A program made the position numbers and the translations under genes. From Maribellus sediminis (GTDB taxonomy: Bacteria > Bacteroidota > Bacteroidia > Bacteroidales > Prolixibacteraceae), in assembly GCF_011799805.1 (NCBI RefSeq), contig NZ_WXUB01000003.1:496001-560000 (forward strand): a DNA stretch of 64,000 nt. The letters are read 5' to 3'. This document shows, piece by piece, positions 51,909 to 58,570 of this stretch (within the stretch, counting starts at the first letter, position 1; each line of letters begins with the position of its first letter). The notes below the pieces were generated by a model that searched no databases, had not been told where the DNA came from, and saw only the letters and a program-made list of their open reading frames with translations.

Positions 51909-52031
51909 ATTTCGAATTTTGTGTAAAAATAACCAAAAGTACGGGCTTCCCGCAATTCAAGTTTATTCTTTCGTGATAGGATAAGTTTTCATTTCACGAG
52001 GCTTAACGATCCATCCTGAAAGATAAATCCA

Positions 52032-52085
52032 TTTTTCTCGCTTCGCTGCGACTGACTTTTTTCTGCAGCAAAAAAAGTCAGCAAA
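52032..52085 (+). repeat. 54-bp repeat, copy A, upstream of structured element A
   Basis: This stretch matches 57430-57482 with only one or two differences over more than 50 bases. It contains CTCGCTTCGCTGCGACTGAC and an inverted repeat CTGACTTTTTT/AAAAAAAGTCAG around CTGCAGC. It lies about 165 bp before the structured element (52250), against 20 bp in the second copy. The 735-bp gap 51909-52643 holds no supported gene; the extra stretch 52086-52249 is unique to this copy and includes another inverted repeat (CACTGAC / GTCAGTG). Confidence 0.75.
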
Positions 52086-52249
52086 AATGCCGCCGCTGAC
52101 ATGAAAATTGCTAAAATTTCGAGAACTCCGCTAAAAGAAAATAACTCCACTGACACTCGCTACTCTCGGTCAGTGTCAAACAGCTTTTCTTTTTTAACCT
52201 GCCCGACCGTGTCGTTCAGGCGGGCGCTACGTTCCCAAAATTTCTTAAC

Positions 52250-52501
52250 GCATTTTCCTGTAGGCGGAAGGAACGAGATGCATACATTAACCTTTGTCTT
52301 GAAGATTTCTTTCGAGAGTTGGCCTCTTTTTATCAATCCTTGAATCAAAATTTTAGCTTAGTGAGACCGGGAAGTTCCGAGTGTGCGAGGAAATCACCCG
52401 GCCGAACTTAGCTAAAATGAAGATGATAGGTGAAGATAAAAAGCAGCCTAGAATTTTCTGCTTCGTCTTTGTTTTATGACAAAGATGAAGGCCTCCGGCA
52501 G
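52250..52501 (+). ncRNA. candidate structured RNA, copy A
   Basis: The core 52304-52501 is exactly as long (198 nt) as the core of copy B at 57556-57753, and both fold alike. Helices in A: GATTTCT/AGAATTT (52304-52310 with 52450-52456); GGC/GCC and TTTTTATC/GATAAAAA (52327-52334 with 52435-52442); CCT/AGG; ATTTTAGCTTAG/CTTAGCTAAAAT (52350-52361 with 52407-52418); CCGGG/CCCGG; TTCC/GGAA; and a 3' hairpin CTTCGTCTTTGT/ACAAAGATGAAG (52461-52472 with 52479-52490) inside CTGC/GCAG. Several pairs differ from copy B but stay paired. G-U pairs occur only if the plus strand is the RNA. A 5' hairpin-like segment with CCTGTAGGCGGAAGGA precedes it. No family name is known to me. Confidence 0.65.
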
Positions 52502-52643
52502 GAAAATAATTAGATCTGAATGACCGGAAGTGATTTTATTCAAAACCTAAGCTCGAATTACAGAAAGCATGGTAGTTTAATACCGCATCAAGATAACAGG
52601 TAAAACAGAGTTTGCGGGGATTAAAAATAAGTGCAAAAAAAGC

Positions 52644-57318: not shown

Positions 57319-57429
57319 AGTTATTTTTCTGAATCGATAAAAATACAATTTTTCAATGGGCCGAGATTTTAAAATGCAAAAAGTTGAATGTTTAGCCGGG
57401 TACAGAACAACTCAACAAGAACGAAATAC

Positions 57430-57482
57430 TTTTCTCGCTTCGCTGCGACTGACTTTTTTCTACAGCAAAAAAAGTCAGCAAA
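57430..57482 (+). repeat. 54-bp repeat, copy B, upstream of structured element B
   Basis: Nearly identical to 52032-52085 (TTCTCGCTTCGCTGCGACTG... CAGCAAAAAAAGTCAGC). Only one or two bases differ, notably CTACAGC for CTGCAGC. It is followed after 20 bp by structured element B. A short CCTACCTACCGGCAGGCAGG stretch joins them. Confidence 0.75.
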
Positions 57483-57502
57483 CCTACCTACCGGCAGGCA
57501 GG

Positions 57503-57753
57503 CGCATTTTCCTGTAGGCGGAAGGAGCGGGCTGCTTTCAGTAAATTTTATTGGGAAGCTCATCCGAGAGTTGGCCTTTTTTTATCAAGCCTGGAATCGA
57601 AACCTGGGCTTAGAGAGCTCGAGAAGCTCCGAAGAATTGAGGAGATCACTCGCGCGAACTTAGCCTGGGTGAAGATGAAAGGTGCAGATAAAAAGCAGCC
57701 TTGAGCTTTCTGCATACTATTTGGGTCAAGCCAAAGAGTATGGTTTCCGGCAG
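57503..57753 (+). ncRNA. candidate structured RNA, copy B
   Basis: The core 57556-57753 folds as copy A does: AAGCTCA/TGAGCTT (57556-57562 with 57702-57708); TTTTTATC/GATAAAAA (57579-57586 with 57687-57694); CCT/AGG; ACCTGGGCTTAG/CTTAGCCTGGGT (57602-57613 with 57659-57670, with two G-U pairs and the same T-T mismatch as A); GCTCGAG/CTCGCGC (one mismatch); CTCC/GGAG; and a 3' hairpin CATACTATTTGG/CCAAAGAGTATG inside CTGC/GCAG (57710-57713 with 57750-57753). The 3' hairpin shares almost no sequence with that of A, yet both have 12-bp arms. Unpaired TCCGGCAGG and CGAGAGTTGG are conserved. It lies in the 527-bp gap between the M28 gene and 57876. Confidence 0.65.
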
Positions 57754-57875
57754 GATTGAGAGATCAAAGCTCATCCTGATTCATTTTAATCTAAAGTCGA
57801 TTCAAACTGATGCAATAGTATCTAAAATCCATCTTTTTACGTACCTGCAATCAGCTATCCATAAAAAAAACTAAA

Positions 57876-58296: not shown

Positions 58297-58570
58297 TTTC
58301 GTCCGGGACCACGAACAATCACAAATCAACTTTCATCGCCAGACGAGTCGTTGTCTGTTACATAACCCGGCGATGCGCACCGGGCTGTCCGTCAGCTGAC
58401 GGATCGCCCCCTCGGGGCTTTTTCCCTGCAATGCCAGCACTGAAAGTGAGTCATATTGTAGCCCAGGGCATAGTAATTCAGAAAATTACGTCGCCCTGGG
58501 TAAAAATAGCATGAAGTAAGTCGTCCGGCGAAGAAGGCTGATCAAAGCTTAACAGAAGTTCCGGACGAAA
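58297..58570. repeat. 274-bp MITE-like element with terminal inverted repeats
   Basis: TTTCGTCCGGGA (58297-58308) and TTCCGGACGAAA (58559-58570) match as inverted repeats at 11 of 12 positions. Inside lie the REP palindrome TCCGTCAGCTGACGGA (58388-58403), CGCCCCCTCGGGGC, and a nested stem CCCAGGGC...GCCCTGGG (58462-58469 with 58493-58500) containing GTAATT/AATTAC. No ORF of note. The combination suggests a mobile or structured repeat. It fills the gap between the 134-residue membrane protein and the PCMD gene (58281-58683). Confidence 0.6.

Follow-up and report, generated by a model that had tools for sequence, protein, structure and literature searches.

The window, a stretch of 64,000 nucleotides of the Maribellus sediminis genome, carries two copies (A and B) of a folded unit of ~198 nt, here called R. 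We consider it more likely than not that R is a module of a non-coding mobile repeat, which in relatives takes the form of a divergent pair of units carried by an ISAon1-moved miniature transposon, and that its fold perhaps acts as RNA. The cargo of a short bacterial transposon can thus consist of structured modules that are conserved and paired, and a selected fold need not imply a host regulatory RNA. Such a family of folded modules is apparently undescribed in Bacteroidota; the literature, covered mostly by abstracts or by sequence strings, gave no description of the element. One study reportedly deals with a MITE in Porphyromonas, another is said to list 104 candidate structured RNAs, and a third reportedly concerns Flavobacterium columnare.

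Fold of the R Unit

Both copies lie on the plus strand, A at 52309-52506 (221.4 bits with the covariance model R1) and B at 57561-57758 (209.8 bits), and each fills all 198 model positions with 198 bases, in line with the 198-nt cores given for them in the preliminary description. That account had counted two copies; both are real, but in this genome ten full-length copies score strongly (163.8-221.7 bits), an eleventh is full-length but weaker (87.2 bits), and there are partial copies besides.

The unit has two parts, a long closed arm (GGC...GCC) and, behind it, a 3' hairpin. In the ten-copy alignment (A2), the helices are the closing helix P1 (GGC--TTTTTATC with GATAAAAAG--GCC), two short P2 helices, the covarying P3, P4, P5 and a 12-bp terminal hairpin. 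In A, the 5' strand of P1, GGCCTCTTTTTATC (52321-52334, plus strand), pairs with GATAAAAAGCAGCC at 52435-52448 of the same strand (helix 1, 95.8% of cells paired), a stretch that had been taken for unpaired. P3 (helix 4) is formed by ATTTTAGCTTAG at 52350-52361 and CTTAGCTAAAAT at 52407-52418, both on the plus strand, and shows changes on both sides in 7 of its 11 pairs among the ten own-genome copies. The 3' terminal hairpin (helices 8 and 9) occupies 52461-52490, again on the plus strand, with the loop TTTATG at 52473-52478.

Across the ten own-genome copies, standard pairs are present in 95.6% of 540 cells (shuffles: 83.7 +/- 1.1), and the best slid version of the structure reaches a pairing of at most 54.4%. 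Both sides have changed in 22 of 54 pairs. In none of 500 shuffles do the pairing, the double changes or the covariation score come up to the real values; the tally of additional pair types does not stand out from the shuffles, 254 of which reach it. RNAalifold recovers the helices unaided, and those that the preliminary description had placed at the same positions with differing bases are present. A set of 27 diverged copies, drawn from Prolixibacteraceae, Flavobacteriales and others, is 95.2% paired, with both-side changes in 35 of 49 pairs, a covariation score of 0.586 (0.164 shuffled, at most 0.145 slid) and 292 double-change cells (89 shuffled, at most 81 slid), a count biased towards the model to which this alignment was fitted. 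As the core served as the search pattern, its invariance among copies found in this way is partly a matter of ascertainment.

G-U pairs had been said to occur solely on the plus strand, which overstates a real bias: read on that strand, G-U outnumbers A-C by 31 cells to 5 in the ten copies and by 74 to 11 in the 27. With the covariation, these strand-biased wobbles and no conserved gene near the copies, it is strongly supported, as originally claimed, that selection acts on the folded strand rather than on coding.

A 3' pseudoknot had been overlooked in the earlier reading of the structure. The loop of the 3' hairpin and a CTTGAN stretch behind P1 complement each other in most copies, giving an H-type pseudoknot. 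This pseudoknot helix is 88% paired in alignment A2, with both-side changes in one of its five pairs, and is weak in A's own R unit, where the equivalent stretch lies at ~52449-52453. Averaged over 55 units from four groups, complementarity to a unit's own partner is 4.94 against a maximum of 4.65 upon random re-pairing with other units (300 trials for each of two schemes). The average includes several units in which the automatic hairpin choice failed and v2 units with an inserted hairpin, which score low. The pseudoknot is convincing because its strands are replaced wholesale: CTTGAC/GTCAAG, CTTGAT/ATCAAG, CTTGAG/CTCAAG, CTTGCC/GGCAAG and GGGCGATT/GATCGCTC. By eye, the strands are CGGCA/TGCTG in the L unit of A described below, and at least three strand sets exist, of the CTTGA-, GGGCGAT- and CGGCA-type.

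Divergent Arrangement of L and R

A homologous unit, L, is frequently found beside R in head-to-head orientation and folds on the opposite strand. In 11 aligned pairs, the two units mostly share a 5' GGCCTC, the motif CAGCCT(T/A)G behind P1 and the design of the hairpin, while their arms differ. The model of L, R2, has 16 matches of at least 167 bits in 100 named loci. On L's own strand, G-U exceeds A-C by 44 to 1 in 11 copies (seven doubtful outer pairs omitted); given this excess in both units, each folds on its own outward strand. R1 also picks up L units, and R2 also R units, at some 20-60 bits, hence weak matches indicate the wider family and not R or L.

Copy A is such a composite, and the interval 52250-52501 first proposed for it truncates the element. 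Its longest alignment to another copy spans 52022-52505, with L folding on the minus strand and R, head to head with it, on the plus strand, and matches the interior of a transposon copy of genome G009 (L243; blastn, 71.5% over 502, A_win 722-1205). The L unit of A (52052-52267, minus strand) falls, by homology (alignment A6), into a diverged L subfamily together with those of L002 and eight G009 copies. Its hairpin lies at 52052-52081 on the minus strand, with the loop bases 52066-52070 complementary to 52088-52092; the limits, helices and pseudoknot of this unit were set by eye, and model R2 gives it just 16 bits (52041-52124, E 0.02). The orthologous intergenic region is shorter by 469, 604 and 613 bp in the genomes G033, G032 and G018, respectively, and the element is absent there. 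Copy B has retained R and, at 57425-57482 on the minus strand, a remnant of L, whose 58 bases share 94.8% identity with the left portion of the G009 copy L248.

A palindrome of ~20 bp like CCTGCCTACCGGCAGGCAGG, a separate short interspersed repeat, is inserted in P4 of one R unit (L012) and inside the L remnant of B, at ~57479-57500 of the window.

Transposon Ends in Relatives and the Candidate Helper

In relatives, the L/R composite is the cargo of non-autonomous transposons of ~500-780 bp with terminal repeats of ~24 bp; there is no transposase ORF inside these elements and no conserved gene near the named copies. On the G009 copies, the repeats read GGATCAC....AAAT.C.GGTGGA, and 8-bp duplications are found in the flanks. 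Twelve copies of ~510 bp in this genome are nearly identical (97-99% with one of the twelve as reference), and a more diverged group of ~600-690 bp has the same kind of ends. In a count of 24 G009 copies, which excludes the loci L253 and L285, the duplication is exact in 14, has one mismatch in five and two mismatches in one, and was not found in four. Draconibacterium orientale FH5T has a copy of 566 bp with an exact 8-bp duplication (L110) and one of 564 bp whose duplication has one mismatch (L142), and the 500-bp and 776-bp elements of G007 show one mismatch each. Among 13 named copies tested, the 11 other than L110 and L142 have no clear ends plus duplication; L092 has faint ends without a duplication. 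A search of 37 genomes of the window's genus finds the terminal-repeat pattern in 13 and a backward control pattern in none. Outside G009, at least 10 of the 42 pattern places adjoin R or L copies among the matches listed. The terminal repeats and the 8-bp target duplications point to a DDE-type transposase as the mover, and the mobility of the composite in the window's genus is well supported. A transposase of this type would move the L/R pair as the cargo of a miniature transposon.

Most likely, an ISAon1-group transposase of the ISL3 family supplies this function in trans, as we infer from shared ends. Genome G008 contains four autonomous elements of 1441 bp with terminal repeats matching those of the composite transposons; over 30 bp, the IS shares 90% identity at its left end with the L110 element. 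The ORFs, read in one copy, match ISAon1_upstream (NF049916), ISAon1_downstr (NF049917; 533.7 bits with a cut-off of 250) and the Pfam family DDE_Tnp_ISL3. The 1441-bp element has no room for L or R, and none of its four copies in G008 is surrounded by a clean 8-bp duplication. L and R are the cargo of an IS chassis. A literature search found no paper on ISAon1. In locus L309 (588-3482), two ISAon1-type copies of 1441 bp stand in tandem, with a GATCC-rich spacer of 13 bp.

The transposons of the relatives resemble MITEs of ISL3/ISAon1 elements in sharing the IS terminal repeats, the 8-bp duplications, the lack of a transposase ORF and the dispersed copies. They are unlike them in their two conserved, outward-folding and pseudoknotted modules, which are unrelated to the IS interior; four elements of ~410 bp with the same ends contain neither L nor R. 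For A and B, the ends of such MITEs were lost or never present. A search of the window's genome with the terminal-repeat pattern gives no match, and neither copy has recognisable terminal repeats or an 8-bp duplication, their scores of 30 and 27 lying within the null (median 24, minimum 13). Two further copies, L007 and L008, have faint ends, with scores of 14 and 13, the best of 200 random places being 13. In view of these unrecognisable ends, A and B are classed, by homology of the cargo, as relatives of transposon cargo, and a transposon origin for them is suggested by this homology. They are probably old copies, in which the L of A has diverged, that of B is reduced to a remnant and no transposon ends are recognisable.

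The three burst copies that were scanned combine an intact L (223-226 bits) with a broken R (63-64 bits), and L316 also moved without an intact R; an intact R is thus unnecessary for movement. That copies with a broken R move would suit a fold that is a by-product of neutral transposon filler, with compensatory changes stemming from palindromic ancestry. We hold this to be very improbable, as the double-change pairs (22/54 and 35/49) exceed every shuffle and slid version, and the pseudoknot strands are swapped as a set in other subfamilies.

The ~410-bp elements (L312 1257-1667, L313 1266-1675, L326 2550-2959 and L327 2515-2924) have ISAon1-like ends and a different cargo. They are 84-95% alike between copies, and an exact 8-bp duplication is present in L313 only. 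By eye, an inverted repeat at 58440-58500 of the window (GCCCAGGGCATAGTAATTC...GCCCTGGG) is like part of the cargo of a 410-bp element.

Known RNA Families, Gene Context and Role of the Fold

Neither the window nor any of 13 additional unit-bearing loci matches a family of Rfam 15 at gathering scores. With permissive thresholds, three unit-bearing stretches yield chance-level matches, with neither HEARO nor group II introns among them; the known families suggested in the preliminary description were, hence, not recovered by the Rfam comparison. HEARO, the omega RNA of IscB, is structured and tied to mobile elements, and stand-alone copies of it occur. The unit resembles it in these respects, being multi-copy, folded, pseudoknotted and located in mobile DNA. 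Nevertheless, an omega/HEARO-like guide or effector RNA, or a piece of a group II intron, is the least credible of the readings considered here: there is no Rfam match and no conserved neighbour gene, and no partner protein was found, the RRXRR/IscB search of the genome having no match, with all of its controls silent too.

No conserved neighbouring gene was recognised near the copies, and no conserved ORF explains the conservation, which agrees with the initial view of the element as non-coding. The largest ORF clusters consist of short frames (96 ORFs in 47 loci and 44 in 26 loci), of which 71 and 25, respectively, overlap a unit or the ~330 bases before it; the remaining short ORFs are taken for chance frames in repeated Mangrovibacterium sequence. 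Other clusters looked at contain, by eye, OmpA-like proteins and dehydrogenases.

The orientation relative to genes was scored in 57 copies chosen from 136 matches (weaker and inverted ones dropped), some of which are orthologous and not independent. In gaps between co-directional genes, 12 copies are sense and 14 antisense. This absence of an orientation rule disfavours a cis-regulatory RNA, one of the possibilities raised at the outset. For 15 of the 57 copies, no neighbour was called on one side; in the 42 with both neighbours known, 15 lie between convergent genes and one between divergent genes.

The fold, as a best guess, functions as RNA within read-through transcripts. As the units face outward, a transcript from either side would end with a correctly folded unit. 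The folded unit might insulate or protect this transcript, letting insertions persist. The excess of convergent over divergent neighbours (15 vs. 1) fits an insulator and, equally, the avoidance of promoters, and the lack of a sense bias (12 vs. 14) weakens the RNA-insulator reading. It is almost as likely that the fold works as single-stranded DNA instead. The near-identical recent copies in one genome, together with the autonomous IS in another, make the choice between RNA and single-stranded DNA testable.

Distribution across Bacteroidota

A covariance-model search of Bacteroidota, as the preliminary description had proposed, finds units across the phylum with the ten-copy model R1. With strict filters, R1 matches 37 of 61 relatives at E <= 0.01 (of these 30/37 in the window's genus) and 26 of 395 phylum-wide genomes at E <= 1e-5; R2, also surveyed under strict filters, is found in 34 of the 61 relatives at E <= 0.001 and in 20 of the 395 phylum-wide genomes. 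The hosts include Draconibacterium, Mangrovibacterium, Maribellus, Acidiluteibacter, Owenweeksia, Vicingaceae and uncultured Flavobacteriales. The covarying element, thus, spans Prolixibacteraceae to Flavobacteriales and more distant Bacteroidota, and stand-alone relatives of the unit are carried by other Bacteroidota. It is possible, if doubtful, that a Bacteroidota-wide class of folded units, divided into several subfamilies, has mobility or recombination machinery of its own, which acts on the folded strand, and that divergent pairs were later loaded into ISAon1 transposons. The single pattern match on a viral contig (L175), as well as L099, is without R1 match and was put down to chance, as was L150 with a partial R1 match of 14.5 bits.

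In G331, fifteen matches belonging to two unit variants lie at 560-629 kb of contig 1, all on one strand; taken over 535-692 kb, 15 of 15 matches are on one strand, and in the related genome G366, this holds for 10 of 11 on contig C23. Models of the two G331 variants found neither of them in 40 other 20-kb samples of this genome. Eleven of 12 full units of G331 follow '+' genes, seven of them at a distance of at most 90 bp, in one orientation, and in G366, three of the seven units looked at stand behind genes. The partial copies of G331 and G366, five without the 3' end and two without the 5' end, show no pattern of 5' truncation, and retro-mobility was rejected.

This regional one-strand bias (15/15 and 10/11), the inverted pairs of folded units scattered between genes and the compensatory changes would also be found in a REP/REPIN-like repeat, as in REP, BIME and REPIN families. 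Its single-stranded DNA fold would be the substrate of a Y1 HUH transposase (a RAYT, e.g., of subclass 2.6, Bacteroidetes), and the L/R pair would represent a giant REPIN captured by an ISAon1 transposon. We regard this as unlikely. Neither R1 nor R2 detects a unit at E < 0.01 in 37 Y1 loci, taken from 68 Y1 matches (best 0.029, L392). BLAST of 20 wider Y1 loci, seven of which surround genes already among the 37, detects units near the L410 gene only, ~1 and 1.8 kb off and with other genes between, and a crude pseudoknot scan of 57 Y1 loci returned L410 and three matches unlike units. The units, thus, adjoin no Y1 gene among the loci tested, and adjacency to RAYT/IS200 was rejected. The likelihood is lowered further by three of the 11 genomes with units that have no Y1 match (G255, G298 and G388, with 2-3 listed unit matches each). 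Moreover, REPs are hairpins of 20-40 nt, according to an excerpt of PMC3733652, while the units measure ~200 nt and possess a multi-helix arm and a pseudoknot, and the mover in the window's genus is of the DDE type.

The G331 units, folded-strand repeats placed directly behind genes (11/12), in one orientation and within a single region, are also reminiscent of a folded recombination site like the attC of integron cassettes, and the tandem arrays of Mangrovibacterium marinum would be compatible with such sites. The units are, however, longer than attC, and no integrase was recognised: crudely scanned for motifs, the regions of G331 and G366 yielded a single ORF, in a motif context unlike that of a tyrosine recombinase. 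Furthermore, G366 is strand-biased without a gene rule (3/7), and elsewhere, the orientation is evenly divided (12 vs. 14). A recombination site of this kind is, hence, quite improbable, and a repeat module carried by ISAon1-moved miniature transposons remains the preferred reading, one that the preliminary description had not proposed.

In Mangrovibacterium marinum, the units are repeated every 422-526 bp in the tandem arrays (L129, L116, L148, L102 and L123). In the G331 region covered by L357 and L358 (C1:597200-628717), the unit variants follow successive genes of what appears, by eye, to be a locus for sugar or polysaccharide biosynthesis.
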